From Colwellia sp. MB02u-6 (lineage in GTDB: Bacteria > Pseudomonadota > Gammaproteobacteria > Enterobacterales > Alteromonadaceae), in contig NZ_JACGVG010000035.1 in NCBI RefSeq assembly GCF_014077095.1, positions 186,001-250,000 on the forward strand: 64,000 nt of DNA, written 5' to 3'. The notes beneath the pieces were generated by a model. It searched no databases. It saw nothing but the letters and a program-made list of their open reading frames with translations, and had not been told where the DNA came from. Both the position numbers and the translations under genes were made by a program. Shown here piece by piece: positions 13,911 to 57,866 of the stretch. Within the stretch, counting starts at the first letter, position 1. Each line of letters begins with the position of its first letter.

Positions 13911-14525
13911 TCTTCGCATAAATATGAACGACAAAAAATAAGGTACTACAAATACCTGTTTACCCATCTTTTTAATTGCTTGCCTAACAGTTGACTGACT
14001 AAAGTCCGACCTACAAAACAATTGCCTAAATTTACACTATCACCCACATGCTCTATGTAGATCCGATGTAGGTTGGACTTTAGTCCATCAGGTTTTAAAA
14101 GACAGCGCTCAGTTTGAAGTTTTAAGCTGTCAGATTTAAAGAAAATAGCTTTCAGTTTATTTGTCTGTTTGGTTTTATGCCACTAAGTTTTGTATTTTCT
14201 GTAATGTTGTCAGACAAAAGTCCGACCTACAAAACAATGGCCTAAATTTATATTATCACCCACATGCTCTATGTAGACGCGATGTAGGTTGGACTTTAGT
14301 CCATCAGGCTTTAAAAGACAGCGCTCAGTTTGAAGTTTTGAGCTGTCAGATTTAAAGAAAATAGTTTTCAGTTTATTTTTCTGTTTGGTTTTATGCCATT
14401 AAGTTTTGTATTTTCTGTAATGTTGTCAGACAAAAGTCCGACCTACAAAACAATGGCCTAAATTTATATTATCACCCACATGCTCTATCTAGAGGCGATG
14501 TAGGTTGGACTTTAGTCCAACAAGT
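13911..14525. repeat. REP/BIME array, three tandem units of 216 bp
   Basis: A paired REP element (GACTAAAGTCCGACCTAC, then about 55 bases, then GTAGGTTGGACTTTAGTCC) is repeated at 13992-14090, 14208-14306 and 14424-14522. The motif ACCTAC falls at 14009, 14225 and 14441, an exact 216-base period; the inter-element spacer is also nearly identical. The ygfA-proximal flank (13911-13991) is the reverse complement of the spacer seen in the 19.7-kb array. Together with repeat-derived flanks this fills the whole 13871-14623 gap; no gene is supported in it. Confidence 0.85.
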
Positions 14526-14625
14526 TTTAAGCAGTAGCTGTCAGTAGAAAAATAACTATCAGTTGTCAGTAAAGATAGCTGACAGTTATTTTCTTTACTG
14601 ACAGCTTAAAAATTTTCATAGACAA

Positions 14626-14656
14626 AAAAATAGCCAACATTTAGTTGGCTATTTTT
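14626..14656 (-). terminator. Terminator of the POT transporter gene
   Basis: AAAAATAGCCAAC (14626-14638) and GTTGGCTATTTTT (14644-14656) are perfect complements with a 5-base loop and, on the minus strand, a T-run. It lies about 20 bases past the transporter stop codon. Confidence 0.85.
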
Positions 14657-14677
14657 ACTGTTAGTTATTCAAAATAA

Positions 14678-16210
14678 TTATGCAGTAGATGTTGTGCTTT
14701 TACCTTTAACTGGCGATGAAGGGTCTTCTTCTTCTGTTTCTAGCGCTTCCCAGAATCTAGATTTCAAGCCAATGAGTAAAATAATAATACCAATACCAAT
14801 ACTAAATAGACTGATTTGAATATATAAGGCTGGAATTTGTTCAACGTTGTTTGGATCGTAATTACCAGCAAGCAAACCTGAAATAATATTACCAATTGAA
14901 TACGTCAAGACAAATACACCCATCATTTGGCCAGCAAATCTTCTCGGTGATAATTTACTCACGGCACTTAAGGCGATAGGACTTAAGCATAACTCACCCA
15001 CTGTGTGTAAAAAGTAAGTGGTAATTAACCATCCAGGCGCAACTTGTAAGCCACTGGCTGCATATTGTGCGGCAAAAAACATTACGATAAAGCCACTTGC
15101 CATAATAATTAAGCCAACAGCACATTTAATGCCGTAGGCAGGTGTAACCATTCTTTGACCTAATTTAATCCAAAATGCGGCGAAAAAAGGTGATAGCAAA
15201 ACAATAAACATAGCATTAGAGAACTGAAACCATGCTGTTGGAATTTCAAACGAACCTATCATACGGTCAGTGTAATCACGAGCGAATAAGTTTAATGATG
15301 AGCCGGCTTGTTCAAAGCCAGACCAGAAAAAAGCTGAGGCAATACAAATTAATAATAATGCCCAAAGTTTTTTCTTTTCATTGGCGGTTAAGTCACTAAA
15401 AAAGTAAATAATGGCATAATAAATAACAAAAATTAAGGTAAAGGCTATCGCAACATATTGTGCTGTAGCAATGGGGTCTATCACCACAATGCCTTCAAAG
15501 GTTAAAACAGTGACCACTGCAATGGCAACTAGCGAAGCCGCTATAATTATCCAGCTAGTGCGTTGACCTTTTGCTGATAAAGGTGCAACCGGTTCTGCGC
15601 CAACACCTTCTAATTTTGGTGTCGTCATTCTATATTGAATAAGGCCTGCTGCCATGCCTATTGCGGCGGCACCAAAGGCATAATGCCAACCAAAATCTGA
15701 AGCTAAATAACCACAAACTAAATAGCCAATAAAAGAACCTAAGTTAATGCCCATGTAATAAATAGCATAACCACTATCACGGCGCTTATCATTTTCACTA
15801 TATAATTGGCCAACCATAGCACCGATATTGGGCTTTAATAAACCCGTACCCAAAATAACTAAGATCAAACCAATAAAGAATGTTTTGTCATTTGGGATAG
15901 CTAAAACTATGTGGCCAAACATGATGATAATGCCGCCATACCAAACTGCTCTTTGCCCACCCAGTAATCTGTCTGCTATCCAACCGCCGGGTAAGCCCAT
16001 AAAATAGACGGTACCGGTATATAAACCATAAATAGCGGTTGCCGATGCAATAGTTAATGCTAAGCCACCTTCTTGTAAGGTTGCTGTCATAAAAAGAACA
16101 AGTAATGCGCGCATGCCGTAATAGCTCATGCGTTCCCACATTTCTGTGACAAAAAGTGTTTTTAACCCGCCCGGATGGCCATAAAAAGCCTCTGAATTTG
16201 GGGTACTCAT
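14678..16210 (-). CDS. POT/PTR2-family di/tripeptide:proton symporter
   Basis: An inner-membrane importer of di- and tripeptides driven by protons. The start is placed at ATG 16210 (MSTPNSEAF), 6 bases after GAGGA; an upstream in-frame ATG lacks a ribosome site. It gives 510 residues and about 14 hydrophobic segments. The family motif is present as EMWERMSYYGMRALLVLFM (about 22-40, canonical ExxERFxYY), with the PTR2 signature near NIGAMVGQLY and GYAIYYMGINLG. The C-terminal tail is acidic and Ser/Thr-rich. The substrate within the POT family (peptides versus others) cannot be fixed. Confidence 0.92.
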   Translation of the reverse strand: MSTPNSEAFYGHPGGLKTLFVTEMWERMSYYGMRALLVLFMTATLQEGGLALTIASATAIYGLYTGTVYFMGLPGGWIADRLLGGQRAVWYGGIIIMFGHIVLAIPNDKTFFIGLILVILGTGLLKPNIGAMVGQLYSENDKRRDSGYAIYYMGINLGSFIGYLVCGYLASDFGWHYAFGAAAIGMAAGLIQYRMTTPKLEGVGAEPVAPLSAKGQRTSWIIIAASLVAIAVVTVLTFEGIVVIDPIATAQYVAIAFTLIFVIYYAIIYFFSDLTANEKKKLWALLLICIASAFFWSGFEQAGSSLNLFARDYTDRMIGSFEIPTAWFQFSNAMFIVLLSPFFAAFWIKLGQRMVTPAYGIKCAVGLIIMASGFIVMFFAAQYAASGLQVAPGWLITTYFLHTVGELCLSPIALSAVSKLSPRRFAGQMMGVFVLTYSIGNIISGLLAGNYDPNNVEQIPALYIQISLFSIGIGIIILLIGLKSRFWEALETEEEDPSSPVKGKSTTSTA

Positions 16211-16466
16211 ATAATATCCTCGATAGGTAATACCAAACACGGTTTAAAATTATTTTTATTTCAACATGAATATATATCGGGTTGAACGTGCTCAGATAAA
16301 TTAAAAGTTTTATTAATCAACCCGCTTTATACCTTTGCTAGCATGGAAAGGCAAGTAAGCGCGGTTAATCTCTATGTTAATTAATGTAAAATTATATTAA
16401 ACCAATTTATTTTGCTGTCGATACATTTTAATTGGACGTTAATTTCAATGCACAATAGCATCTTTT

Positions 16467-16680
16467 TGTAAATTGGACTTTAGTCCGTCAACTGTACAGC
16501 GGGCTATTAACGAAATGGGGTAACAAGCATTTGCAGTTGGCATTTTTTGTCGTTCGCATTTATGCAAAAACAGTTAAATTTAATTTAACTTGATGGACTA
16601 AAGTCCACCCTACATCGAGCCCACCGGTGATAATGTAGATTTAGACGATTGTTTTGTAGGTCGGACTTTAGTCCGTCCAC
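16467..16680. repeat. REP single plus BIME-type pair
   Basis: A lone REP (GGACTTTAGTCCGTC, 16467-16490) is followed by the conserved spacer containing TCGTTCGCATTTATGC and then a pair: GATGGACTAAAGTCCACCCTAC (from 16592) and GTAGGTCGGACTTTAGTCCG (from 16656). This is one full copy of the 188-bp unit seen at 19.7 kb. Confidence 0.8.
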
Positions 16681-16747
16681 CGTTTAGTGACACATAACGT
16701 AATGATTAAGAACCAGACAAGTATAATGAAAGCTGTTTATCTTCAAA

Positions 16748-16850
16748 CTGACAGCTAATAACTTAAGGAGTTGTTTACTCAAGGCTGTTTTTTTTAACTG
16801 ACAGCTAATAACTTAAGGAGTTGTTTACTCAAGGCTGTTTTTTTTAACTG
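16748..16850 (+). repeat. Perfect 50-bp tandem duplication
   Basis: The 50 bases 16751-16800 are repeated without mismatch at 16801-16850 (starts ACAGCTAATAACTTAAGGAG). It belongs to the AACTGACAGCT repeat family and precedes the polysaccharide export gene. The perfect identity implies a recent duplication. Confidence 0.9.
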
Positions 16851-17008
16851 ACCGTTATCACTTTTAATTATTGTTATTTTAATCATTAATGCAAAATATA
16901 AGCGGCTAAAAAAGTTACTGTAATCAAAGTACACTTACTGATAAACTTGACGCTGTTTAACTTTATATCTAAGTTATGTCCCCCGTATATAGGAAGAAAT
17001 ACGCGCCA

Positions 17009-19729
17009 ATGATGCATTTTATTCGTCAACTGACAAGCCTTCTCGTCGTTTTTACATTCTCTTTTAGTGCTATCGCAGCGCAAATTAGCCCACAACAAAT
17101 AGAGCAATTTAAAAACTTACCTAAATCTCAGCAGCAGGCATTAGCGCAAAGCATGGGTGTTGATCTCGATGCGGTTATGGGACAAATATCCGGCAGCAAC
17201 CAACAAACACAATTATCATCTACACCGGTTGTGCCAAGATCTACAGTTGAAAATAATGTGGAAGGGCAAGCAGAGGTTATTGAGTTTGAAAGTGATACTG
17301 AATTATTTAAGCCACTAACAAGATTTGGTATCGATGTTTTTGCCAATGCGCCGAGCACCTTTACTCCTACTATGGACATCGCTATTCCTAAGCACTATAT
17401 ATTAGGTGTTGGCGACCAATTGTCGATACAAATATATGGTAAAGAAAATGCTGAATATATACTGCCGATAACACGCGAGGGCAATATACTTATTCCTGAT
17501 GTTGGGCCGATAAAAGTGGTTGGTTTAGCATTTGCTGAAATGAAAAAATTTCTGGCTGAAAGAATTCAACAACGCATCATAGGTGTCAACGTGGTGGTCA
17601 GTTTGGCTGAATTACGTTCTATGCGTATTTTTGTTTTAGGTGACGCCTACAAACCAGGCCCATACACCTTAAGTTCGCTTTCAAGTGTTACGCACGCTAT
17701 TTTTGCTGCTGGTGGGGTTAGTGATATTGGCTCATTACGTCATATTGAAGTAAAACGGGCGGGCAAAATAGTACAAACCGTTGATTTATACGACCTGCTT
17801 ATAAACGGTGATTCTTCAAGCGACATTTTGTTGCAATCAGGCGATGTGGTTTTCATTCCAACTCAAAGTAAAAATGCTTCAATACGGGGTGAGGTTAGGC
17901 GTCCGGCTATATACGAATTAAAAGCCGGTGATGATTTTAATCAACTTATTGAAATGGCTGGTGGTTTATTACCGTCTGCCTATCCGCAATCAACCATGGT
18001 AGAACGTTACAATCAAGACAGTTTACGTAGCATCATTAATATTGACTTAACGGATAGTAAAGCGCGTAAACAATTACTGAAAAGCGGTGACAATATTCGG
18101 GTGTTAAAAAGTTCGGGTATGTATGAACAGTCAATTACCGTTATTGGTGCCGTAACACGCCCAGGTAAATATCAATGGCAACAAGGTCTTAAAATAGCTG
18201 ATTTATTGCCTAATTTAGACTCTCATATCTTGCCTTCTGCCGATTTAAGTTATGGTTTAATTGTGCGTCAAAAAGATCAAGCTAGAAATATTGAAGTATT
18301 ACAATTTAATTTAGGCAAGGCGCTTAATAACTCAATACCTAACCCGGTTGATAACCTTGTTTTATTACCTAGCGACAAACTATTGATATTTGCTAATGTT
18401 ACTCAGCAGTTGGATGAAAAAATATCACTAGATGAATTGGCTTTTACCCAAGAGCAACTTTTTGCCAAAGAGCGGCAACAGGCTAAAACGTCACATAAAG
18501 AAAAATTATTTTGGGATAAATATGGTGGCAGTTCGTCACAATATGCAACAGACACCGATGCAACTAAAGAAGTAGGGCGTTTAGCCAATCAATCTTTAGT
18601 GCAGATGACCAATAATAGTTTAGATGACCAAATCGATATTCGTGCAATGGGTTTGTTTTCTCGCCCTCGTTTGTTAGCGCCAGTGCTTAGAAAGTTACGT
18701 CAACAAGGTGCTTCTGGCCAACCCATTCAACTGATTGAAGTAGATGGTCAAGTTAAATTTCCTGGTGTTTATCCACTAGCGAAAAATACAAAAGTGAGTG
18801 ACTTGGTAGCCGCTGCTGGTGGCGTGAAAGAGTCTGCTTACTTAGCGCGAGCAGAAGTGACTCGTAATACACTTACCGTGGCAGGTGCGACAAAAATTTC
18901 TTTAGATGTCGACCTAGGTTTAGCTTTAAAAAGAGATGAAGTTTTCGATATTGCTTTGCAAAGTAAAGATCGACTGAATGTGCATAAAATTCCGGCCTGG
19001 AGTGAAAATCATGTGGTTGAATTACGAGGTGAGTTTGTTTTTCCTGGCAAATATACCATTCGTCGCGGTGAAACCATCGCTGACTTAGTTAGTAAAGCCG
19101 GCGGTTTAACCCGATATGCTCACCCTGACGCGTCAGTGTTTACTCGCATAAAGTTAAAAGAACTAGAAAAGAAAAATTTAATTAAGCTTGCTGGCGACTT
19201 ACGTATTGAAATGGCCTCTAAATCTTTGACCGAGCAAGGTGGCTCAGCATCTTACGACGACGGTCAAAAAATATTAGCCGATATTACCAAATTAGAGCCA
19301 GTAGGGCGTTTAGTTATTAATCTACCCAGATTAATGGCTTCAAATAATGATGGTGTGTTACTAGAAGGCGGAGACATACTTTATGTACCGACTAAGACAA
19401 ATTCAGTTAATGTTATTGGCCAAGTTCAGGTGGGATCATCACATTTATATAATAATACAATGTCGACTGAAGATTATATCGTGCAAAGTGGAGGTATTAA
19501 AAAACGTGCTGACGCCGAGCGCATTTACGTTATCTCGGCCAGCGGTAGTATTAAAATGCTTGAAGAAAGTAACTGGTTTGCTGGCGCAGAAGATGGCGGA
19601 TTAAAACCAGGCGACACCATTGTAGTGCCGCTTGATGCTGAATATATGAATGACCTAACATTGTGGTCAACAGCGACACAAATTATTTATAATGCGGCTG
19701 TAGCTGTTGCAGCAATCAGCGGCCTTTAA
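17009..19729 (+). CDS. Multi-SLBB polysaccharide export protein (Wza-like)
   Basis: A large periplasmic/outer-membrane polysaccharide export protein. I start it at ATG 17009, giving 906 residues, because the resulting N-terminus (MMHFIRQLTSLLVVFTFSFSAIAA) is a good signal peptide, with AGGAAG upstream; an in-frame ATG at 16976 has no ribosome site. After a Gln-rich linker comes a Poly_export domain (about 120-200: YILGVGDQLSIQIYG, GNILIPDVGPI). It is followed by at least five SLBB-type repeats with recurring GGV/GGL and GDVVFIPT/GDILYVPT motifs. It is more than twice the length of E. coli Wza (379). It opens the surface-polysaccharide locus and has no lipobox Cys. Confidence 0.88.
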   Translation: MMHFIRQLTSLLVVFTFSFSAIAAQISPQQIEQFKNLPKSQQQALAQSMGVDLDAVMGQISGSNQQTQLSSTPVVPRSTVENNVEGQAEVIEFESDTELFKPLTRFGIDVFANAPSTFTPTMDIAIPKHYILGVGDQLSIQIYGKENAEYILPITREGNILIPDVGPIKVVGLAFAEMKKFLAERIQQRIIGVNVVVSLAELRSMRIFVLGDAYKPGPYTLSSLSSVTHAIFAAGGVSDIGSLRHIEVKRAGKIVQTVDLYDLLINGDSSSDILLQSGDVVFIPTQSKNASIRGEVRRPAIYELKAGDDFNQLIEMAGGLLPSAYPQSTMVERYNQDSLRSIINIDLTDSKARKQLLKSGDNIRVLKSSGMYEQSITVIGAVTRPGKYQWQQGLKIADLLPNLDSHILPSADLSYGLIVRQKDQARNIEVLQFNLGKALNNSIPNPVDNLVLLPSDKLLIFANVTQQLDEKISLDELAFTQEQLFAKERQQAKTSHKEKLFWDKYGGSSSQYATDTDATKEVGRLANQSLVQMTNNSLDDQIDIRAMGLFSRPRLLAPVLRKLRQQGASGQPIQLIEVDGQVKFPGVYPLAKNTKVSDLVAAAGGVKESAYLARAEVTRNTLTVAGATKISLDVDLGLALKRDEVFDIALQSKDRLNVHKIPAWSENHVVELRGEFVFPGKYTIRRGETIADLVSKAGGLTRYAHPDASVFTRIKLKELEKKNLIKLAGDLRIEMASKSLTEQGGSASYDDGQKILADITKLEPVGRLVINLPRLMASNNDGVLLEGGDILYVPTKTNSVNVIGQVQVGSSHLYNNTMSTEDYIVQSGGIKKRADAERIYVISASGSIKMLEESNWFAGAEDGGLKPGDTIVVPLDAEYMNDLTLWSTATQIIYNAAVAVAAISGL

Positions 19730-19731
19730 CC

Positions 19732-20395
19732 TGATGGACTAAAGTCCAACCTACATCGAGCCCACGGGTGATCATGTAGGTTTAGGCAATTGTTTTGTAG
19801 GTCGGACTTCAGTCCGTCAACTGTTCAGCGGGCTATTATTGAACTGGGGTAACAAACATTTGCAGTTGGTCTTTTTCTGTCGTTCGCATTTATGCAAAAA
19901 CAGTTAAATTTCATTTGATTTTATGGACTAAAGTCCAACCTACAAGAGCCCACGGGTGATAATGTAGATTTGTGCAATTGTTTTGTAGGTCGGACTTCAG
20001 TCCGACAACTGTTCAGTGGCCCATTATTGAACTGGGGTAACAAACATTTGCAGTTGGTCTTTTTCTGTCGTTCGCATTTATGCGAAAACAGTTAAATTTC
20101 ATTTAACTTGATGGACTAAAGTCCAACCTACAAGAACCCACGGGTGACAATGTAGATTTGGGCAATTGTTTTGTAGGTCGGACTTCAGTCCGTCAACTGT
20201 CCAGAAAGCTATAAACGAGATGAGCCAACAGGTATTTACAGCGTATCATCTTTTGTCGTTCACATTTATGCGAAAACAGTTAAATTTCATTTAACTTGAT
20301 GGACTAAAGTCCAACCTACATAGAGCTTACGAGTGATAATGTAGCTTTAGGCGATTGTTTTGTAGGTCGGACTTTAGTCCGACAACCGCACAGCG
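19732..20395. repeat. REP/BIME array, four elements with 188-bp period
   Basis: Paired REPs begin at 19736, 19925, 20113 and 20301 (GGACTAAAGTCC core), a period of 188-189 bases. Each pair ends in GTAGGTCGGACTTCAGTCCG or a close variant. The spacers share TCGTTCGCATTTATGC and CAGTTAAATTTCATTT. The array starts three bases after the export-gene stop and fills most of 19730-20594; the remaining bases to tviB carry GACAGCT repeat words and no gene. Confidence 0.9.
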
Positions 20396-20594
20396 AATAC
20401 AAAACCTAATGGGATAAAAGCCAAAAAAACAAGTAATCTGAAAGCTATTTTTTAAAACTGACAGCTGTCTTTTAAAACCTGATGATTAAAATATCAACCG
20501 ACACGTAAACAGTAAACAGAAGGTTTTATTCTATTGACAGCTAATAACTTATAAATTTTTTAATAACCGCTATTAAAGGCAAAGGACTTCCAAA

Positions 20595-21875
20595 ATGATA
20601 CGTGATTTAAATGATGTGAAAATAGCTGTAATAGGCTTAGGCTATGTTGGTTTACCACTGGCAGTAGAGTTTGGAAAAAAATATCAAACCTTAGGTTTTG
20701 ATATCAACCAAGCACGTATTACCGAATTAAATAATGGCACAGATAGTACTCTTGAGGTTAGCGACGAAGAGTTAGCTGAAACAACCAAGCTAAGTTATGC
20801 TTGCCAACCCGAGGACTTGAAAAACTCTAACGTTTATATCGTTACCGTACCAACGCCTATCGACCAGCATAAACAGCCCGACCTAACACCATTACTTAAA
20901 GCCAGCGAAATGTTAGGTAAAGTGATCAGTAAAAACGACATTATTATTTATGAGTCAACGGTTTATCCAGGTGCAACTGAAGAAGCTTGTATTCCCGTAG
21001 TCGAAAAAGCATCGGGTTTAGTGTTCAATAAAGACTTTTATGCGGGTTATTCACCTGAACGTATTAACCCGGGTGACAAGGAGCACAGAGTGACTAATAT
21101 TTTAAAAGTTACCTCTGGATCAACACCTGAAATAGCAAAAGTTGTAGACAACCTATACCGCTCTATTATCATTGCAGGCACTTATAAAGCGAGTTCAATC
21201 AAAGTTGCAGAAGCGGCAAAAGTTATTGAAAACACACAACGCGACGTTAACATTGCCTTAATTAACGAGCTGTCTATTATATTTAATAAACTCAATATCG
21301 ATACATTAGAAGTACTTGAAGCGGCTGGCACAAAGTGGAATTTCCTGCCATTTCGCCCAGGTTTAGTCGGTGGGCACTGTATTGGTGTTGATCCCTACTA
21401 CTTAACGCATAAAGCGCAATCAGTAGGTTATCATCCTGAAATGATACTCGCTGGTCGGCGTTTAAATGATGGCATGGGCGCTTATGTTGTCTCTCAGTTA
21501 GTCAAAAATATGCTACACAAACGTATTCAGGTAGAGGGTGCCAATGTGTTAATTATGGGCCTGACCTTTAAAGAAAACTGCCCGGATTTACGCAATACCA
21601 AAATTGTTGATATCGTCAGTGAGCTCAAAGAATACAACATGAATGTTGATATTACTGACCCCTGGTGTTCAAGCGAACAAGCCGAGCACGAATATAATTT
21701 AAGCCTAACAGAAAAGCCCGAAGCTGGTCATTACGACGCTATTATTTTGGCGGTAGCACATAATCAATTTAAGAGTTTAGGCATTGACGAAATTCGCAAA
21801 CTAGGTAAACAACATCATGTACTTTATGACCTGAAATATATACTACCAAAAGAGTCAGTAGACATGCGTTTATAG
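20595..21875 (+). CDS. tviB: UDP-GlcNAc/UDP-glucose-type nucleotide sugar 6-dehydrogenase (TviB/WbpO family)
   Basis: Oxidises C6 of a UDP-N-acetylhexosamine to the uronic acid, using two NAD+. The 426-residue protein has an N-terminal Rossmann motif GLGYVGLP (about 14-21), the SPERINPGD loop (about 154-162) and the catalytic cysteine in [12 protein letters not shown] (Cys262), followed by a C-terminal UDP-binding domain ([15 protein letters not shown]). The ATG has AGGACT upstream. Pairing with the epimerase gene just downstream mirrors TviB-TviC and WbpO-WbpP, suggesting a GalNAcA-type product (inference). Confidence 0.92.
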
Positions 21876-21896
21876 TGTAGCGGTTAAATCAGCAAT

Positions 21897-22156
21897 GCAG
21901 TCCAAGGCTCAACCTACATAAAACCCACGGTTGATAATGTAGGTTGAGGCGATTGTTTTGTAGGTCGGACTTTAGTCCGACAAACGTACAGCAGGCTATT
22001 AACGAGATGAGTGAACAAACATTTGCAGTTGGCATTATTCCGAAAACAGTTAAACTTCATTTAACCTGAGGGACTAAAGTCCAATCTACATCAAGCCGAT
22101 AGGTGATAATGTAGATTTAGGCAATTGTTTTGTAGGACGGACTTTAGTCCGTCAAC
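21897..22156. repeat. Two BIME-type REP pairs between tviB and tviC
   Basis: A degenerate-left pair (21897-21982) and a second pair (22070-22156) are separated by the conserved spacer. The right halves contain GTAGGTCGGACTTTAGTCCG and GTAGGACGGACTTTAGTCCG. They occupy nearly the whole gap between two genes that probably act together. Confidence 0.85.
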
Positions 22157-22207
22157 CTTACAGCGAATACAATAAAACTTAATATTTAAAATTAAATGGA
22201 AGTAATA

Positions 22208-23251: not shown

Positions 23252-23283
23252 AACTGTTAGCTATTTCTTAACTGAAAGCTACT

Positions 23284-23306
23284 TGTAGGTCGGACTTCAG
23301 TTCGAC
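23284..23306 (+). repeat. Solitary REP
   Basis: A single GTAGGTCGGACTTCAGTTCG copy with one base change in the right arm. It is the last REP before the 17.6-kb REP-free block. The rest of 23252-23509 holds GACAGCT-type words, a TATAAT (23435-23440) candidate -10 and the inverted repeat listed next. Confidence 0.75.
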
Positions 23307-23450
23307 AGCCACAAAACGAACCCATGACGAAAAAGGGGTAGTCAGCCAAATGTTTTTTTAAATAAATAACAAAAAATTAACAGGTAATTTAAATAACACT
23401 AATAAACAACTATTAAAAAATACAAATTTATTGTTATAATACACAGGTAT

Positions 23451-23486
23451 TGGACGTTTAAAGTAAATTTTCGAACTAATCGTCCA
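23451..23486 (+). promoter_or_regulatory. Inverted repeat in the wzz leader
   Basis: TGGACGTTTA (23451-23460) pairs with TAATCGTCCA (23477-23486), nine of ten bases complementary, with a 16-base loop. The right arm abuts an AGAGGA ribosome-site-like sequence (23486-23491). A TATAAT at 23435-23440 would place a transcript start just before it. The structure could influence translation of the chain-length gene (inference). Confidence 0.35.
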
Positions 23487-23509
23487 GAGGAATAATCAAA
23501 TAAATATAA

Positions 23510-24616: not shown

Positions 24617-24627
24617 GAGTATATTTA

Positions 24628-40957: not shown

Positions 40958-41060
40958 GTCGGACTAAAGTCCGACCTACAAAAGATAAGCTGCAAAATTT
41001 ATGGTGTTATCTGTAGGCTCTATGTAGGTCCTCTGTAGGTTGGAATTTAGTCCATCAGGT
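40958..41060. repeat. BIME-type REP pair between galU and pgi
   Basis: GTCGGACTAAAGTCCGACCTAC (about 40959-40979; a near-perfect REP) is followed about 55 bases later by GTAGGTTGGAATTTAGTCC. It is the first REP after the block from 23.3 kb. GACAGCT-like words lie before it. Confidence 0.85.
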
Positions 41061-43134: not shown

Positions 43135-44034
43135 ATGCAATTAACCCATTTACAAAAGTTAGAAGCCGAATCTATTCATATCATGCGCGAAGTTGCCGCA
43201 GAATTTGATAATCCTGTGATGCTTTACTCAGTTGGTAAAGACTCCGCCGTGCTACTTCATCTTGCGCGAAAAGCCTTTGCCCCTGGAAAAATACCTTTTC
43301 CACTGTTACATGTTGATACCAACTGGAAATTCAAAGAAATGATTGCCTTTCGCGACGAAATGGCGAAAGAACATGGCTTTGATTTACTCGTGCATAAAAA
43401 TGCTGAAGGTATGGCGATGAATATTAGTCCATTTGAGCATGGTAGTGCTAAACATACCGATATCATGAAAACTCAAGGCTTAAAACAAGCTCTTGATAAA
43501 TATGGTTTTGATGCAGCATTTGGTGGCGCACGTCGTGATGAAGAAAAATCGCGTGCGAAAGAGCGGGTATATTCATTTCGTGATAAAAATCATCGTTGGG
43601 ATCCTAAAAGCCAACGCCCTGAGCTGTGGAACATTTACAACGGTAAAGTCAATAAAGGTGAAAGCATTCGTGTTTTTCCATTATCGAATTGGACTGAGCT
43701 TGATATTTGGCAATACATCTATTTAGAAGGCATTAAAATTGTGCCACTTTATTTAGCTGAGAAACGCCCAGTAGTAGAACGCGATGGCACTTTAATTATG
43801 GTTGACGACGAGCGCATGCCTATTGGTAAAGACGAAGTGGTGCAAATGAAAAGTGTGCGCTTTAGAACCTTAGGTTGTTATCCGTTAACCGGCGCTGTTG
43901 AGTCAACCGCAACGACTTTACCTGAAATTATTCAAGAAATGCTATTAACCAAAACCTCTGAGCGCCAAGGCCGTGTTATTGACCACGACTCAGCAGGCTC
44001 GATGGAGAAGAAAAAGATGGAAGGATATTTTTAA
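43135..44034 (+). CDS. cysD: Sulfate adenylyltransferase subunit 2
   Basis: CysD is the small, catalytic PP-loop subunit of ATP sulfurylase, which makes adenosine 5'-phosphosulfate. It has 299 residues (E. coli 302). The PP-loop [18 protein letters not shown] is at about 31-48, followed by [15 protein letters not shown] and [15 protein letters not shown] (about 130-144). The C-terminus ends [14 protein letters not shown], the standard tail. It heads a cysD-cysN-permease-cysC run on the same strand and has a 25-bp palindrome immediately upstream. Confidence 0.97.
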
Positions 44035-44124
44035 AACTTTGTCATCTTATTCCAGTTTATTTTACGGTGTTAGCATTTTAATTAAATCGACAATTTGTCG
44101 AGTAGAGATTTCCAAGGAAAAAAC

Positions 44125-45528: not shown

Positions 45529-45550
45529 CGTTAAAAGTTAAGCGCTTATG

Positions 45551-45740
45551 CGTAGGTCGGACTTTAGTCCGTCAACTGTATAGAGCCATTAAGGTGATCG
45601 GCCAAAAATTATCTGCAACGAGAATTGTTTTGTCGTTCGCATTGATGCGAAGACGGTTAAATTTCATTTAACCTGATGGACTAAAGTCCAACCTGCATAG
45701 AGCCTACAGGTGATAATGTAGTGCTGGGCAATTGGTTATA
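45551..45740. repeat. REP pair in reversed arrangement between cysN and the permease
   Basis: GTAGGTCGGACTTTAGTCCG (from 45552) is followed by the conserved spacer with TCGTTCGCATTGATGCGAAG and then by GATGGACTAAAGTCCAACCTGC (from 45675). The two REPs are spaced by the long spacer rather than the short one, so this is the spacer-internal half of the tandem unit. Confidence 0.8.
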
Positions 45741-48300: not shown

Positions 48301-48366
48301 GTTGGCGATTAACTAAAATACTTCTAGCTAGCATTAATGTGAATATGGTTAAATTTCATTTAACTT

Positions 48367-48982
48367 GATGGACTAAAGTCCATCCTACAAAGGCCGACAT
48401 AAAACCTATGGGTGATAAAGTAGCCTTGGGCGATTGTTTATGTAGGTTGGACTTTAGTCCGTCAACTCTTAACCGGCGATTAACATGATGGGCCATAAAA
48501 TACCTGTAGCGGGTATTATTTTGTCGTTCGCATTGATGCAAAGACGGTTAAATTTCATTTAACTTGTTGGACTAAAGTCCAACCTACAAAGGCCCACATA
48601 AAACTTGCGGGTGATAACGTAGCTTTTGGCGATTTTTTTTGTAGGTCGGACTTTAGTCCGTCAACTATTAGCTGGCCATTAACACTAGTAGGTTAGCAGG
48701 TGATTAACACTAGTAGGTGATTAACACTAGTAGGTGATTAACACTAGTAGGTGATTAACACGATGGGCCAGCAAATACTGGTAGCGAGTATTATTTTCTC
48801 GTTCGCATTGATGCGAAGACGGTTAATTTCATTAACATGATGGACTAAAGTCCATCCTACAAAGGCCCACATAAAACCTACGGGTGATAACGTAGCCTTG
48901 GGAAATTTTTTTTGTAGGTCGGACTTTAGTCCGACAGCCATTAGCCGGCGATTAACGCGATGGACTAAAATCCAAGCTACAT
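48367..48982. repeat. REP/BIME array between cysC and the DHH gene
   Basis: REP pairs start near 48370, 48569 and 48842, with a lone degenerate REP near 48960 (GATGGACTAAAATCC). The first spacing is 199 bases; the next is 273 because a 17-bp minisatellite has expanded inside the spacer. The spacers carry the TCGTTCGCATTGATGC word. Short reading frames on the minus strand here are repeat translations, not genes. Confidence 0.88.
48677..48770 (+). repeat. 17-bp minisatellite within the REP spacer
   Basis: ATTAACACTAGTAGGTG recurs at about 48677, 48702, 48719 and 48736, with a fifth partial copy at 48753; the last copies are exactly 17 bases apart. It expands the TTAACACGATGGGCC part of the REP spacer. 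Confidence 0.85.
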
Positions 48983-49044
48983 TCAATTTACAAGTAACTT
49001 GTTGCTAACTTTATCGATAAACAATTTATATAGGAGATTTTTGC

Positions 49045-50001: not shown

Positions 50002-50054
50002 TTTACTTTCGGGTATTCAAAAATAAATAGCATTAACCTTATAAGGATTTAAAG

Positions 50055-51065: not shown

Positions 51066-51212
51066 CTAATTTTTAATAGCTAAGCTACTGATTTAAGTGA
51101 GAAGTGAAGCTATCTGTTATCAGCTTTCAGTAAAACCAAGCAGGTATTAGCACGCTTGGCAGATGAATAACTGAGAGCTAATGGTTATTTTATTGAGGGC
51201 TGTATTTAAGCC

Positions 51213-51232
51213 TGATGGACTAAAGTCAAGTT
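51213..51232 (+). repeat. Degenerate REP
   Basis: TGATGGACTAAAGTCAAG keeps the GGACTAAAGTC core but has lost the CAACCTAC end. It lies between galE and the decayed rml copy. The rest of 51066-51324 contains GACAGCT-like repeat words and nothing else I can name. Confidence 0.6.
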
Positions 51233-51324
51233 AGATAAAACCTATGGGTGATAATGCAACTTTAGGTTATGTTTTTTAAGCACAATAATTACTGTACTGA
51301 ATTTATCATAAACAAGGATGATTT

Positions 51325-51456
51325 ATGCATAAAGGAATAATTTTAGCGGCGCCAGTGGCACACGACTTTATCCACTGACGAAAGTTTTCATTAAGCAGCT
51401 GATGCCTGTTTACGATAAACCTATGGTTTATTATCCACTTGCGATACTAATGCAAG
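51325..51456 (+). pseudogene. rmlA/rfbA 5' remnant with frameshifts
   Basis: From ATG 51325 the sequence follows the start of the intact rfbA (36179): GIILA, then, after a single-base loss in the glycine-rich loop, the equivalents of [23 protein letters not shown] in another frame. The reading from the ATG stops at TGA 51376. Similarity to rfbA ends near 51456, after about 45 codons, where the rmlB fragment begins. It is a decayed duplicate rather than a functional gene. Confidence 0.9.
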
Positions 51457-52224
51457 GCAAAGTATCCAGCCGATAAAGTTTTTTTACTTGCTGAGCATCG
51501 TTTTCATCATGTATCCACAGACGAAGTGTACGGCACACTTTTATCGACCGACCCTGCGTTTACAGAAGATAACGCTTATGCCCCCAATTCGCCTTATTCT
51601 GCCAGTAAAGCGGCAAGTGACCATTTAGTAAATGCTTATCACCATACTTATGGTTTAAATGTTACCACGAGTAACTGTTCAAACAATTATGGGCCGTTTC
51701 ATTTTCCTGAAAAGCTTATTCCTTTAGTAGTTACTAACATTTTGCATAATAAAGCTTTGCCAATATATGGTGATGGCCAACAAATTCGTGACTGGCTATA
51801 CGTTGAAGACCACGCTTACGGCATTGATTTAGTTTTACACAGTGGCCGAGTAGGTGAAAATTATAATATTGGTGGTGACAATGAATGGGCTAACATTGAT
51901 ATTGTTAAAACCATTTCAAAACTGGTTGAACAAGAATTTATTAAAAATAAAGATTTAGCAACACGTTTTCCGAATGCAAAAGCGGCGATTGAGCAAAATA
52001 CTGAATCACTTATTACTTATGTAAAAGACAGACCTGGCCATGACCGTCGTTATGCTATTGACGCGACTAAAACCAATAATGAGTTATGCTATCAACCGAA
52101 AGAATCATTTGAAACCGGTATCGCTAAAACGGTTGCTTGGTATGTAAATAATGAATTGTGGTGGCAGAGTGTGATGGATGGCTCATACCAAAATTGGATA
52201 GCAGAGCAATACTCGTCAACTTAA
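51457..52224 (+). pseudogene. rmlB/rfbB remnant with internal in-frame deletion
   Basis: A second rfbB copy joined to the rfbA remnant. It starts at the codons for [13 protein letters not shown] (intact protein about residues 22-35) and then jumps in frame over roughly 86 residues to [13 protein letters not shown]. From there it is open to the stop at 52224 and close to identical to the intact gene. It lacks the start and the GGAGFIG NAD loop, so activity is not expected even if translated from GTG 51526. It keeps the canonical [12 protein letters not shown] motif that is altered in the intact copy. Confidence 0.92.
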
Positions 52225-52392
52225 GTCTACAAGCTTTGACGATGCTATTTTATCTAAATGATATCTTTAATTTAATACTGAAGTAGACGTGGATATTTTC
52301 TACGTCTTTAAAAATAGGATGTTTTTGAATAGCCAAACACAGTTTATTCTTGATTAGCATTTATGCCACAGGTATTTAAATTGTATTTAACT

Positions 52393-52480
52393 CGATGGAC
52401 TAAAGTCCAGCCTACATAAAAAATACAGGTGATAATGCAACCTTGGGTGGTTGTTTTGTAGGTCGACTTCAGTCCGCTAG
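52393..52480. repeat. BIME-type REP pair between rmlB remnant and EAL-HDOD gene
   Basis: GATGGACTAAAGTCCAGCCTAC (from 52394) and GTAGGTCGACTTCAGTCCGC (from 52458; one G lost in the stem) with the conserved spacer word after it. It fills most of the 415-base gap 52225-52639; no gene is supported there. Confidence 0.8.
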
Positions 52481-52639
52481 CCGTTAAGTAGGTTATTAAC
52501 GTGATCGGCCAACAAGTATTTACAGCTGAGTATTGTTTTTCAGTCGGCATTTGTGCCAAAGATAGTTAACTGAAAGTTGGACGCTATTTTACTGACAGCC
52601 ATCTATGCCATGCCTTTAAATTTTTTTGTTAAGTGATGA

Positions 52640-53860
52640 CTAATAATTGGCACGCTTTTGTTGGTCAGCCCAAGCTATTGCGCGATTATAGCTTTTAAGG
52701 ACATTGGCTTTTTTTAAGCCAAGTTTAGTCATTACTACGTTGGTTTTTGACCACTCTGCTCGTTCAATAAACTCTAACAGCATAATTAAGGCCGCCATAT
52801 CACCTTTACGGGTTAATAATGTGTCTTTTATTTCTTGAGCTAATGGCAGCTTGGTGAGAATATTTGCTAAGTCTTCGTCAACGATGGCATCAATTAACGA
52901 CAATAAACCGGTTAAAAAAGCTATTGAGCTATCTATTGGGGATTTAATTTCACCGGCCATTAAATCACAAAATTTTGCTCGGATCATAGCCTCATTAATA
53001 AGTTCAGATGGCTTGCTGGGATTAATATTTGCTGCAAACATTAAACCCAGAAAACGTATTAATTCAGCTGAGCCTAATATAACCAGTGCTTGTTTAATAG
53101 TGGAAATATCAGTGCGGCGTTTAAAAATTGCTGAGTTGGCATAACGCAGTAGTTTGTAGGACAAAGTAACATCCCGTTCAAAAACTGATGTAATACTGGC
53201 AAGGTCTAACTCTTTTTTTGAGGTTTCATAGAGGAGTTCTGCCATTGTTATTTGTGATGGTGATAGATTTTTGGTTTTTATCATTTCAGGCTTAGCGAAA
53301 AAGAAGCCTTGAAATAATTCAAAATCTAACGCTAACGCTTGGTTATACTCTTCGTAGGTTTCAACTTTTTCTGCTAGTAATTTAATGTGTGGAAAATCTT
53401 TAATGGCAGCTTTTATAATTTTTATGGTGTTTAATGTAGTGATTTTCCAGTCAATTTTAATGATGTGTATAAATGGATAAAAGTGTTGCCATACAGGTTG
53501 ATGAATATAATCATCTAACGCTATGGTATAGCCTTTTTCATGTAAATCTTTGCATATCGATAATAATTTTTTACCCGGCTTTACAGTCTCTAAAATTTCA
53601 ATAACCACTTCTTCTGGTGTTAATGTTTCTGGATAACCTTTAATAAGAGTTTCTAAAGTAAAATTAATAAAGGCAGGTTTATTGCCAGTAAATTCACTAA
53701 TGCCAAGATTAAAGTTACTGGCTTCAATAATTTTTGTTGTCGCTTCGTCACCATCAATATCGGGGAAAACATTGATGATGCTATCGCGAAACAATAGTTC
53801 GTAGGCAAATAGGTTTTTATCTATATCTAATATTGGCTGCCTAGCTGCGTAAAAGTACAT
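52640..53860 (-). CDS. EAL-HDOD two-domain signalling protein
   Basis: A 406-residue cytoplasmic protein. The N-terminal EAL-like domain (about 1-200) has ExLxR as ELLFR, the Asn motif (INF), EILE, LDDY, IKID and AEKVET, so many metal/substrate residues remain. However, the DDFGTG loop reads DDYIHQ, which makes c-di-GMP hydrolysis doubtful. The C-terminal half is an HDOD domain (about 205-390, TLSYKLLRYANSAIF). Such EAL-HDOD proteins (for example CdgJ in Vibrio) influence motility or biofilm. Its start ATG 53860 is divergent from putP. Confidence 0.9.
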   Translation of the reverse strand: MYFYAARQPILDIDKNLFAYELLFRDSIINVFPDIDGDEATTKIIEASNFNLGISEFTGNKPAFINFTLETLIKGYPETLTPEEVVIEILETVKPGKKLLSICKDLHEKGYTIALDDYIHQPVWQHFYPFIHIIKIDWKITTLNTIKIIKAAIKDFPHIKLLAEKVETYEEYNQALALDFELFQGFFFAKPEMIKTKNLSPSQITMAELLYETSKKELDLASITSVFERDVTLSYKLLRYANSAIFKRRTDISTIKQALVILGSAELIRFLGLMFAANINPSKPSELINEAMIRAKFCDLMAGEIKSPIDSSIAFLTGLLSLIDAIVDEDLANILTKLPLAQEIKDTLLTRKGDMAALIMLLEFIERAEWSKTNVVMTKLGLKKANVLKSYNRAIAWADQQKRANY

Positions 53861-54151
53861 TCAAATTCCTAATTAACTCTATGTTATAAAGAATAATTTT
53901 GTCATTTTTTATTTAGTATTATTCTTTAGTTAACTTAATTTTCACATTAGCTGGTTTATTTATAACACAAATAATTGTTAATACTTACGAAAAACATGGA
54001 ATCAACTATTAACTAAGCCTATTATTGTTGCTCACGTTCAATTGAGTAGTAATATGCTATTTATTTGAACAGTTTTAATGCCAAACGAATTAATTACCGT
54101 TAAGTGGTAAAATAAATTGTTTCGATTGGTATAATGTTTTTCGGAGGTTAA

Positions 54152-55639
54152 ATGGCTGTAGGAACGATGATTTCATTGGCACTATACTTTGTTGTTATGT
54201 TGGGAATAGGTATTTATGCTTATAGAAAATCAACTAGCGATGTATCTGGTTTTATGCTTGGAGGACGTAGTTTAGGACCTGGGGTAACAGCGCTGTCTGC
54301 AGGGGCCTCAGACATGAGCGGTTGGATGCTAATGGGTGTACCCGGGTTAATGTTTACGGTAGGCTTGAGTAGTGCTTGGATTTCTTTTGGCTTAGTCCTC
54401 GGTGCTTATTTAAATTACCTTATCGTAGCACCCAGATTAAGAACTTATACCGAGATGGCAAATGACTCGATTACTTTGCCCGATTTTTTCGAAAATCGCT
54501 TTGCTGATAGCTCACATGCACTTCGCATCACTTCTTCGATTGTTATTATTTTATTTTTTACCTTATATACTTCTTCAGGCATTGTTGCTGGTGGTAAATT
54601 ATTTGAAAGTTCGTTTGGCCTAACCTATGAAGTAGGTCTATATGTTACCGCTGGTGTTGTGGTACTTTATACACTTTTTGGTGGTTTTTTAGCCGTGAGT
54701 CTGACTGATTTTGTGCAAGGCTGTATTATGTTTGTTGCCTTGGTGCTTGTGCCTATTGTCGCGATCTCTGATGTTGGAGGCACTGACGCTATGATGCAAG
54801 CTATTGAAAAGGTCGACCCTGCATTCATAGACTTATTTAGTGGTGTCACTATTATTACCATAATTTCTGCCATGGCATGGGGATTAGGTTATTTTGGTCA
54901 GCCTCATATTATTGTTCGCTTTATGGCTATTCGTTCAGTAGAAGATGTACCAGCAGCAAGAAGAATAGGTATGAGTTGGATGATCGTTTCATTGTGTGGT
55001 GCTATGGCTACTGGTCTTGCCGGTGTGGCTTATGCGGCTAAAGTAGGCTTGGTAGTTGATGATGCCGAAACAATATTTATTTTACTAGGTCAGGTACTGT
55101 TTCACCCTCTTATCGCTGGCTTTATACTTGCGGCGATTCTAGCGGCGATTATGAGCACCATTTCTTCGCAATTATTGGTGACATCAAGTTCATTAACGGG
55201 CGATATTTATCAAGCCTTTTTGAATAAAAACGCTAGTGAAAAGCAATTAGTATTGGTTGGCCGAATATCAGTCGCCTTGGTAGCCATTGTTGCTATTTTT
55301 CTTGCTTACGATAGAGAAAGCTCAATATTAACTTTAGTCAGTAATGCTTGGGCCGGTTTCGGTGCTGCATTTGGACCCTTGGTTATTATGAGTCTGTATT
55401 GGAAGAAAATGAATCGACATGGTGCATTAGCCGGTATGTTGACCGGAGCTATTACCGTTTTAGTTTGGATGTATGCGCCTATAACGCTAAATGGTCAGCA
55501 CCTTAGTGACGTGATGTATGAAATTGTACCTGGCTTTATTATGGCCAGTATCGCGATTGTATTGGTTAGTCGCTTAACAACAAAAGAACAACCAGAAATT
55601 GAAAAATTATTTGATGAGGTTGTTGCTAAACATAGTTAA
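54152..55639 (+). CDS. putP: Sodium/proline symporter PutP
   Basis: An SSS-family (SLC5) inner-membrane transporter that imports proline with Na+. It has 495 residues and about 13 hydrophobic segments. Signatures are GGRSLGPGVTALSAGASDMSGWMLMG (about 37-62; sodium/substrate region), LPDFFENRF (about 109-117), LTDFVQGCIMF and GYFGQPHIIVRFMAI. ATG 54152 follows a strong GGAGG. The 291 bases between it and the divergent EAL-HDOD gene probably hold both promoters; no motif is clear. A terminator lies 120 bases downstream. Confidence 0.93.
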   Translation: MAVGTMISLALYFVVMLGIGIYAYRKSTSDVSGFMLGGRSLGPGVTALSAGASDMSGWMLMGVPGLMFTVGLSSAWISFGLVLGAYLNYLIVAPRLRTYTEMANDSITLPDFFENRFADSSHALRITSSIVIILFFTLYTSSGIVAGGKLFESSFGLTYEVGLYVTAGVVVLYTLFGGFLAVSLTDFVQGCIMFVALVLVPIVAISDVGGTDAMMQAIEKVDPAFIDLFSGVTIITIISAMAWGLGYFGQPHIIVRFMAIRSVEDVPAARRIGMSWMIVSLCGAMATGLAGVAYAAKVGLVVDDAETIFILLGQVLFHPLIAGFILAAILAAIMSTISSQLLVTSSSLTGDIYQAFLNKNASEKQLVLVGRISVALVAIVAIFLAYDRESSILTLVSNAWAGFGAAFGPLVIMSLYWKKMNRHGALAGMLTGAITVLVWMYAPITLNGQHLSDVMYEIVPGFIMASIAIVLVSRLTTKEQPEIEKLFDEVVAKHS

Positions 55640-55759
55640 AACTAAAATAAGCTAATAGAGATAGCGTTGAGTTTTAAGTTATTAGCTGGCAGTTAAAAGA
55701 ACAGATTTAGCTGTTAGTAATAACTTTAAACTCTTAAGTAGTTTTAAGTAAGTTATAGA

Positions 55760-55790
55760 AGTCGTTAATTCATATTAACGGCTTTTTTTT
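55760..55790 (+). terminator. Terminator downstream of putP
   Basis: AGTCGTTAAT (55760-55769) and ATTAACGGCT (55774-55783) pair (one G-U) with a 4-base loop, followed by eight T's. It ends the putP transcript. Confidence 0.85.
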
Positions 55791-56336
55791 GTTATTTTTT
55801 CTTTCTGAGCAATATTTTTAAGCTAACGCCTTTAATATCGCTCGATTGTTAAACTTTGGAATTTGAACCCAAGCCATTGTGGTAGCTATCACTTAGCTCT
55901 CATTTAGCGCTTGCCAGAGCTTTGATAATAAATAGAACTTTCACCTATGCAAGTCAGCTATGGGCGTTTATCGAAGTGCGAGGTAACGGCAAAAAAGCGA
56001 ATTTAAAGACGATTTAATATACGGTGTTTATTGTCTTATAAGGACCTAAAAAGCTTGATATTAGCTATTCGTAGCGGCATAAGACTAGTATATTCATGTA
56101 CAAAGGATGTAGAACATTGGGGGGCAACGCAGGAGCCGTGATCAAGAATAACTATTGTCTTGATGAAATTTTAGTAACCGCTCTAATTGACTTCAGATGT
56201 AAGCTATTAATATCGTAGCAATCAAGACATGGACGTAGGTATTCAGGTTCAGTCTGAAGCGATGAACCTGTAATCTAAGATTTTTTAAGTCTACTAAGTG
56301 GTAAGGCAACTATTGAGATGAGTACAAGTTTGACTA
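55791..56336. other. Gene-free interval with inverted repeats
   Basis: No convincing gene. Visible structures are ATCAAGA/TCTTGAT (56141-56147 and 56158-56164, inside a GAGC/GCTC frame) and CAGGTTCA/TGAACCTG (56244-56251 and 56263-56270) followed by a T-run at about 56281-56286. The last could be an intrinsic terminator of a plus-strand transcript, so a small RNA here is possible but unproven. Confidence 0.4.
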
Positions 56337-57050
56337 CTAAATTGACCAGGTAATATGATTACTCACTCGTTCCTGCCATTGCTTTATGGGCTCTTTTTTA
56401 TCTCCTACCACAATGATATTTGAATGATTAAAGTTTAATGACCGACCTTGTAATTTATCATTAGCAAAATTAGTAATAAATTTAATATCTTCATCATTGG
56501 GCAAAATAAAAATATTGACCGGACTTGATTGACCTTGAAACACTAAGTGGAGGCTGTTACTGCCATCAAAGCGACAATAATCAGCAAAGATTAAGCTACC
56601 AAAGGTACTATCAAAACTGCCCTTAAATGTCGCCATTTTCTCATTTAATGAGGCCAGTGTTACCCTTGGTTGATCATTGTTAGAGAAGTGTGATGCCTCA
56701 TAATTAACATGCGCAATAGCATAGTCACCCAGGTTTTTATAAGTTTTAGAAAACATCATAAAGTTAACGGTTAAACCCATCACTAGTGCAACAGATGCTG
56801 CCATCGACAAACGAACACGTGTTTTACGTTTTTGTTGCTGATGGCTAGCAAAAGTTTGGCGTAAAATTAACTTATTAGCTAAATCTTCAGGCACGGGGAT
56901 ATGCATGGCTTGTGCGATTTTATTTTCTAATGTGTCAAGTTCTTGCGAAAACTTTTGTTTTGCCGAATCACTTTTAATGGCGGCATTGATAGCATCATCA
57001 CGGTTATTTGGCTCTGCTAGCATACTGCGTCTAAATTTCAAGTCATCCAT
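56337..57050 (-). CDS. DUF3379 protein, probable anti-sigma partner
   Basis: A 237-residue protein with a cytoplasmic N-terminal segment (DDLKFRRSMLAEPN), one transmembrane helix (about 83-102, LSMAASVALVMGLTVNFMMF) and a periplasmic C-terminal domain. This matches DUF3379 proteins found next to ECF sigma genes in marine gammaproteobacteria. The gene starts at ATG 57050, overlapping the sigma-factor stop by eight bases, so translation is coupled. An anti-sigma role is inferred from topology and context. No zinc HxxxCxxC motif is visible. Confidence 0.8.
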   Translation of the reverse strand: MDDLKFRRSMLAEPNNRDDAINAAIKSDSAKQKFSQELDTLENKIAQAMHIPVPEDLANKLILRQTFASHQQQKRKTRVRLSMAASVALVMGLTVNFMMFSKTYKNLGDYAIAHVNYEASHFSNNDQPRVTLASLNEKMATFKGSFDSTFGSLIFADYCRFDGSNSLHLVFQGQSSPVNIFILPNDEDIKFITNFANDKLQGRSLNFNHSNIIVVGDKKEPIKQWQERVSNHITWSI

Positions 57051-57558
57051 TGTGTAGACCTCTTAATTTTGGCTCGTCGTCTACGGCCTCTTTCAATTGA
57101 TTGCGTGCACGAAATAATCGTGTCATCACGGTATTTTTATTCAGTGACAAGATACCGGCAATTTCTTCACCACTGAAACCACCAATCACCTGTAAAACTA
57201 AGGGTTCACGATACTCTTCAGGCATTTTTTCTATTTTTTCCCGTAACCAATAGTGTTCAATTTCCTGTTCGCTACTGGTGGCTTTGACATCGGCAATAGT
57301 TGCTTCTTCATATTCGCTCATGTCAAAACGCTTACGCTCAAAACGACGAGCGTTTTCTCTGCGCAGAATAGTGATTAACCATGATTTTGCCGCCTTTTCG
57401 TCTTTTAACGAGTCAAGAGCGCGCCATGCACGTAAAAATGTTTCTTGCACTAAATCTTCGGCAATATGCTTATCGTGGCATAACCAGTAGCCATATCGAT
57501 ATAAATCTGCATGTAATGCTTTAACGAGTGCTTCGTATCTAACTTGTTTTGTCGCCAT
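57043..57558 (-). CDS. ECF-family RNA polymerase sigma factor
   Basis: A sigma-70 region 2/region 4 protein of 171 residues, start at ATG 57558 (MATKQVRYEALVKALHADLY); a further ATG at 57585 would add nine residues without a ribosome site. Region 2 holds AEDLVQETFLRAWRAL (about 34-49), region 4 PLVLQVIGGFSGEEIAGILSL with TRLFRARNQLKE (about 130-160). It overlaps the DUF3379 gene. The regulon and stimulus are not known; no matching promoter was identified in the window. Confidence 0.9.
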   Translation of the reverse strand: MATKQVRYEALVKALHADLYRYGYWLCHDKHIAEDLVQETFLRAWRALDSLKDEKAAKSWLITILRRENARRFERKRFDMSEYEEATIADVKATSSEQEIEHYWLREKIEKMPEEYREPLVLQVIGGFSGEEIAGILSLNKNTVMTRLFRARNQLKEAVDDEPKLRGLHNG

Positions 57559-57777
57559 GTTGTAAAAGACCTGAGGCTTTGTCATTTTATTTCACACAAA
57601 TAAACTTATTTACGTAACCCCACTATAGCTTAAATAACTGTTTGAAATTTAATTGGATTAACGTTTGCTAGAGATAGCTATTGTTAAAAAACTTTTAAGC
57701 CAAGCGTGATAGTTTTTAGTGCCAAGTTATGAGCGGTAGGTTTTGGCTCTATAAGGTTATTCGTTTGCTTAACGGTT

Positions 57778-57866
57778 GACGGACTAAAGTCCGACCTACA
57801 AAAAAATTGGCTAACGTTGCATTGTCATCCATAGTTTTCTGTAGATTGGACTTTAGTCCATTAAGT
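57778..57866. repeat. BIME-type REP pair upstream of the sigma gene
   Basis: GACGGACTAAAGTCCGACCTAC (from about 57778) and GTAGATTGGACTTTAGTCC (from about 57841). This and GC-poor flanks fill the 57559-58001 gap between the convergently placed Bat operon end and the sigma gene. No gene is visible. Confidence 0.8.

Follow-up and report, generated by a model that had tools for sequence, protein, structure and literature searches.

Introduction

Repetitive extragenic palindromic (REP) sequences and the REP-associated tyrosine transposases (RAYTs) linked to them provide the closest described parallels to the repeats that we analyse here, which recur at ten loci in a 64,000-nucleotide stretch of the genome of Colwellia sp. 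MB02u-6 (positions 186,001 to 250,000 of contig NZ_JACGVG010000035.1; this whole stretch is hereafter called the window). As characterized by Bertels and Rainey (2011, PMC3116915), REP doublets forming hairpins (REPINs) are intergenic, RAYT-linked units made of an inverted REP pair and its spacer, and they build tandem clusters of near-identical units. The Colwellia repeats share each of these features, but they differ in that their linker, of about 102 nt, is itself conserved and in that a long hairpin across the unit has little covariation support. The likeness extends to the GTAG REP dimers and bacterial interspersed mosaic elements (BIMEs) described by Di Nocera (2013, PMC3733652), with which the window repeats have in common the GTAG tag, the alternating orientation, the heterodimers, and spacers that are conserved in GTAG-out pairs (the 'HH' dimers of that work) and more variable in GTAG-in pairs (its 'TT' dimers). 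Described there as well, and encountered again here, are REPtrons that are sometimes missing and REPs whose GTAG provides the TAG stop of a flanking open reading frame. Dimer spacers reported in that source mostly span 20-100 bp, some being largely conserved, which places the window linker at the long end of the range. The words Colwellia and Alteromonas are absent from its main text, and no Colwellia REP case was found in the literature searched, whose coverage excludes most subscription journals.

The action of TnpAREP on folded single-stranded REP DNA has been published for E. coli, Stenotrophomonas and Marinomonas. Work on RAYT/TnpAREP systems (Nunvar 2010, PMC2817692; PMC8266576) describes transposase genes flanked by REPs whose stems vary between RAYTs, an arrangement also seen in the relatives considered below; the genome under study differs from these systems in that no cognate RAYT was found in it. 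The E. coli enzyme requires a bulge in the stem, and the REPs of group 3 enzymes are perfectly palindromic (PMC8266576). REPIN populations of E. coli are described as persisting without a RAYT (PMC8049555), and the decay that follows RAYT loss has been modelled (PMC3686654). The Colwellia population resembles the RAYT-less one of E. coli in that many copies persist where no RAYT for them was found, and differs from it in that array turnover is visible between species with 95% identity across six genes.

Our analysis indicates that the window repeats are very probably non-autonomous mobile elements of the REP/REPIN class that were once spread by a RAYT and have since undergone tandem turnover. 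The grounds for this are a GTAG-out unit that is conserved across Colwellia genomes, sites that are filled in some genomes and empty in others, and RAYTs that sit among such repeats. The elements belong to a known class, with the features of GTAG REPs and BIMEs present, and are a fairly ordinary member of it.

Results

A GTAG-tagged REP concentrated in the window

The REP is a 22-base element in which a GTAG tag precedes an imperfect 8-bp stem with a two-base loop. The form GTAGGTCGGACTTTAGTCCGAC has 24 matches in the window at ≤3 mismatches and none in 100 dinucleotide shuffles. A looser scan, at ≤5 mismatches to three variants, recovers 35 REPs across 10 loci, and all 35 window copies, for which placement was computed, are intergenic in a stretch where intergenic DNA makes up 16%. 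The full-genome search that an earlier reading of the letters alone (the sequence-only reading) had proposed returned 69 matches at ≤3 mismatches, at 33 loci in 4.01 Mb and 42 contigs, which, together with the intergenic placement of the window copies, gives the dispersed, many-copy, extragenic distribution of GTAG-class REPs. The window represents 1.6% of the genome, yet it holds 24 of these 69 copies and 10 of the 33 loci.

Including the 23 loci outside the window, the looser scan yields 109 REPs, a set drawn from loci with at least one match at ≤3 mismatches and therefore short of more degenerate solitary copies. Positions 1-4 are G in 100, T in 106, A in 105 and G in 106 of these, counts towards which the scan itself is biased. 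Pairing is found in 96-108 REPs at seven of the eight stem positions and in 49 at position 6/21, a T-T mismatch being the commonest state there (55/109), so that the 5' GTAG and stem-loop of the class are both present. The core had been read as GTAG plus a palindrome; the repeat is real, but the exact perfect palindrome is a minority form (4 of the 24 GTAGGTCGGACTTTAGTCCGAC matches). Two variants, GTCGGACTTYAGTCCGTC and GTTGGACTTTAGTCCATC, alternate, and stem position 7/20 is a C-G pair in 47 and a T-A pair in 45 of the 109 REPs. A search of the window against Rfam matched no family, and a known RNA family was rejected as the identity of the repeats.

Alternating pairs joined by a conserved linker

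Neighbouring REPs alternate in orientation almost without fail, with a single same-orientation case among 76 pairs less than 400 nt apart. Of the 37 GTAG-out linkers at the loci scanned, 35 fell within the length range used for pairwise scoring, and 85% of their 595 pairs outscore the best shuffled pair, so that the spacers, far from proving unrelated on alignment, are homologous; for GTAG-in linkers (n=38) the figure is 44% of 703 pairs. Because both linker types are homologous across loci, the repeated unit is best described as a GTAG-out pair with its conserved linker, of about 146 bp in all, plus a GTAG-in linker. An alignment of 33 of the 37 GTAG-out units (four being excluded for length) has a mean column identity of 78%, and a second, nearly invariant palindrome, GTTAAATTTCATTTAAC, adjoins one REP of the unit. 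The regularly spaced alternating REPs and conserved linkers of BIMEs are thus present, as is the inverted REP pair that forms the unit of a REPIN, and GTAG-in pairs occur alone too. A long-range conserved hairpin across the GTAG-out unit was considered and has little support.

In length, 29 of the 37 GTAG-out linkers fall within 98-106 nt. At 14 kb, the array of 216-bp period has a second type of GTAG-out linker, which resembles by eye those of arrays in the close relative G008; the common linker is seen there only as a remnant, at 13.92 kb. GTAG-in gaps range over 38-119 nt in the 109-REP set, with modes at 42 and 53. These measurements amend the sequence-only reading, which had proposed inverted pairs about 55 bases apart, conserved spacers of roughly 95 bases, and a unit of 188-216 bp exceeding a classical BIME. 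Inverted GTAG-in pairs do occur, with gaps of 41-55 nt in the window; the spacers correspond to the homologous GTAG-out linkers but are longer, mostly 98-106 nt and 119 nt at 14 kb; both periods exist, but the 216-bp array differs in its GTAG-out linker from the 188-bp units; and the unit is indeed long, though unusual only in degree because of the published spacer range and the conservation of some of those spacers (PMC3733652). Where two words had been placed at eight loci, TCGTTCGCATTTATGC is found at all eight (≤3 mismatches) but CAGTTAAATTTCATTT is missing at 13.9 and 52.5 kb, and the two pairs assigned to 21.9 kb and the one pair assigned to 52.4 kb reduce to three REPs and one clear REP, respectively. 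The loci are listed in Table 1.

Table 1. REP loci of the window, with coordinates in window positions.
Feature	Position	Strand
Six-REP array with a 216-bp period: three GTAG-in pairs, second-type GTAG-out linker of 119 nt	13993..14521	
3 REPs: one 146-bp GTAG-out unit and the next REP	16468..16677	+
Eight-REP array with a 188-bp period: four GTAG-in pairs, three GTAG-out units	19733..20383	+
3 REPs: short GTAG-out unit (86-nt linker) and one REP	21960..22153	+
Single REP	23285..23306	+
One GTAG-in pair, 55-nt gap	40958..41056	
One GTAG-out unit, 101-nt linker	45552..45696	+
Array of 7 REPs	48367..48980	+
Single REP, degenerate linker remnant upstream	52394..52415	-
One GTAG-in pair, 41-nt gap	57778..57862	

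The GTAG-out linker at 48641 (window positions 48663-48838) is 176 nt long, stretched by several copies of an internal GATTAACACTAGTAGGT repeat, which looks like slippage within a unit.

RAYTs among REPs in relatives and in this genome

Across the family, 147 of 295 genomes match the RAYT profile at E ≤1e-12, a figure in which weaker matches of related Y1 transposases are counted too. We inspected 30 RAYT loci, namely this genome's own and the 29 loci of the best other profile matches, and found GTAG hairpins within about 700 bp on both sides at 23, on one side at 5 and on neither at 2. Hairpins on both sides were seen at 0 of 26 other Y1-transposase loci and at 2 of 300 shuffled RAYT loci, which bears out the earlier assignment of the repeats to GTAG-type REPs of the RAYT class. 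The flanking REP stems differ in sequence from one RAYT to another. As to the identity of the enzymes, ten of ten matched NCBIfam NF047646 at E ≤0.001, with the first of them shown to pass the family cut-off, and the RAYTs match the TnpArep structure 4er8. Of 28 RAYT genes, 14 use the TAG within a GTAG as their stop codon, and in several that GTAG begins the downstream REP; we do not claim this as a new observation, as it has already been published (PMC3733652).

Cognate RAYTs are present in relatives. The RAYT of G016, the only congeneric one seen between both window REP variants, has one in-frame stop, TAA. In Zoogloea and Lacimicrobium, open-frame RAYTs lie beside copies of the window REP that have 0-1 mismatches. 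The earlier suggestion had been that a RAYT absent from both the genome and its relatives would speak against this class, and RAYTs are found among such repeats in relatives. In G016 all 36 REP matches (≤2 mismatches) are on the reverse strand, spread over six contigs.

The genome of MB02u-6 itself contains five Y1_Tnp matches, none of them inside the window, as had been claimed; in the 42-contig assembly, no window-type REP was found closer than 1.5 kb to any of them. Only one is of the RAYT type, an open frame at C27:174939 that is surrounded by REPs with a GGGGCGA stem and is 43% identical to the RAYT of G003, whose REPs begin GTAGGTYGG, as do those of the window. The proposed search for a RAYT flanked by the same REP thus came up empty in these 42 contigs, the genome's RAYT belonging to another REP family. 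This second family, GTAGGGGCGA..., has 44 copies in two clusters, at C27:174.0-175.9 kb, around the genome's only RAYT gene, and at C14:40.4-41.7 kb. We consider it improbable that the RAYT at C27:174939 moves the window REPs in trans. Its open frame and the cross-activity towards foreign REPs published for E. coli TnpAREP (PMC8266576) would allow this, but its own REPs differ in their stem and are confined to the two clusters, its identity to the G003 RAYT, whose REPs do start as those of the window, is 43%, and the variation of stems between RAYTs suggests specificity.

The two closest genomes, G008 and G012, likewise gave no RAYT of this type in profile searches of their drafts; the sole G008 match (E 4e-13) is far off RAYT scores, and the Y1 proteins of both genomes are of another kind. 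In the single-contig congeners G006 and G009, the one RAYT of each genome is separated by about 3 kb from the orthologue of the gene at window 10959-12188 and adjoins arrays in regions orthologous to window 13.9-22 kb, the REPs around it having other stems. Synteny of MB02u-6 with both ends at window 10.96 kb in the stretches compared. The orthologous place of these RAYTs, C27:216.7-217.0 kb, has no RAYT match, and we reject a RAYT relic there. It has no clear REP either, and its one REP-like sequence carries 6 mismatches, a quality reached in 1 of 200 shuffles. A similar sequence occupies the same place in G012, G008 and G005 (6-7 mismatches; 1-4 of 200 shuffles as good) and was not found in G010 and G014. 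This shared, degenerate relic therefore indicates that a REP once stood there.

Filled and empty sites across Colwellia

Copy number in related genomes is very patchy. Among 17 genomes of the genus, ten have matches to a sequence model of the unit, with 101 in MB02u-6 and 157, 140, 79, 78, 24, 4, 2, 1 and 1 in the others, and seven have none; partial matches are included, and the high counts are rough because 150 candidates were scored per genome. In a six-gene tree, MB02u-6 forms one high-copy clade with G012 and G008, the two genomes with the highest counts, and G006 and G009 form another, with the low-copy G005, G010 and G014 between them.

For 8 of the 10 REP-bearing regions, the orthologous intergenic regions of G005, G010, G006 and G009 could be compared. 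In a strict scan, G005 and G010 are REP-free in 8/8 each, and their regions are shorter in 7/8 each; under the looser scan, G005 has a single copy, with 3 mismatches. GTAG hairpins, counted with any stem, occur in 4/8 of the same regions in G006 and 6/8 in G009. These comparisons also bear on whether the arrays could be regulatory structures maintained by the host, such as terminators or stabilisers of mRNA 3' ends, rather than mobile elements. The intergenic position of all window REPs, the occurrence of REPs in several of the same regions in G006 and G009, and the regulatory roles hypothesised for REPs in print (PMC3733652) agree with such a function. We nonetheless judge it unlikely, given the empty and shortened regions of G005 and G010, the 16.5-kb array that sits between divergent genes, the patchy copy number among the 17 genomes, and the lack of any Rfam match in the window.

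At one further spacer, which measures 60 bp in MB02u-6 and G012 and 782 bp with 6 REPs in G008, the sequences look like a gain in G008, although the same spacer also has REPs in G016 and REP-less inserts in several other species.

Turnover of arrays against a sister genome

MB02u-6 and G012 are 95.3% identical in six genes. Nine of the ten window loci, taken regardless of G012, are occupied in both genomes, and nine of ten differ in REP number. With eight non-window loci added, 17 of 18 differ; these eight were picked for their G012 units from the 12 loci, among 23 outside the window, for which one or both flanks could be matched in the G012 sequence retrieved. Units are most alike within an array (88.4%, 50 comparisons), less so between orthologous arrays (83.0%, 43) and least between different loci (71.2%, 200). 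Judged from these sequences, the spread to sites looks mostly old and the tandem turnover recent. The likeness within arrays and the shared occupancy fit tandem turnover after an old insertion, and leave an end of transposition unproven.

It is against this background that a RAYT concealed in an assembly gap between collapsed arrays, with the elements fully active, has to be weighed. We regard it as possible but less than likely. A RAYT could still be hidden because the arrays break the assembly: contig C27 terminates 11 bases past a REP, in two close relatives a unit lies 22 bases (G008:C131) and 40 bases (G012:C51) from the start of a contig, and the RAYTs of relatives have arrays as flanks. 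However, this would require the gene to have escaped all three assemblies of the clade (42, ~60 and ~160 contigs), and the occupancy shared with G012 gives little sign of recent insertion at new sites.

Other intergenic repeats

A second intergenic motif, AGCTGTCAGTT, has 14 window matches at ≤1 mismatch, often beside REP arrays (14125-14598, 16746-16845, 20456, 23270, 40868, 51169 and 55684). At 16746-16845 it includes a perfect tandem duplication of 50 bp, and it is present in relatives also. Related Colwellia carry a palindromic intergenic repeat with CACAGGGAGAA...TTTCTCCCTGTGA-like ends, at G008:C75:16700-17500 and in the G016 spacer orthologous to window 44034-44095; two words of this repeat were searched for in the window and not found.

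Discussion

The spread of these elements could be pictured as follows. Paired units would have been copied into intergenic sites by a RAYT that worked in trans on REP DNA in a folded, single-stranded form, and the arrays would then have been lengthened and shortened by tandem duplication and deletion, processes that would homogenise the units of one array. The cognate RAYT was apparently lost in the lineage of MB02u-6, so that spread to new sites may have slackened or ceased, with copy number still changing inside the arrays.

Several observations weigh against this account. The absence of a cognate RAYT depends on draft assemblies, and the relic at the place of the G006 and G009 RAYT is evidence for a former REP, not for a former RAYT. 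The junctions of insertion are unreadable, as the flanking sequence of a filled site cannot be matched nucleotide by nucleotide to that of an empty one. The two-REP loci of the genome divide into 6 GTAG-in and 4 GTAG-out, and for this reason the mobile unit is not settled. The stem-pairing score of the single REP (0.835) barely exceeds the shuffle maximum (0.830), in shuffles without control for relatedness, and 1 of the 13 pairs predicted for the long GTAG-out hairpin has a two-sided change, with a covariation term of -0.1.

More tentatively, the repeats might constitute an orphan REPIN population, in which the transposase has been lost, and some 100-160 unit matches per genome persist in three sister species through tandem turnover that needs no transposase and possibly also through GTTAAATTTCATTTAAC, next to one REP, which would add a site for a host protein. 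What the non-autonomous REP/REPIN elements of Colwellia offer is a set of REP arrays that can be traced through a species tree, with filled and empty sites and several REP-RAYT lineages within one genus. They also include a clade without a detected cognate transposase, in which any persistence of REPINs without a RAYT, and the process behind it, are directly testable outside E. coli and Pseudomonas.

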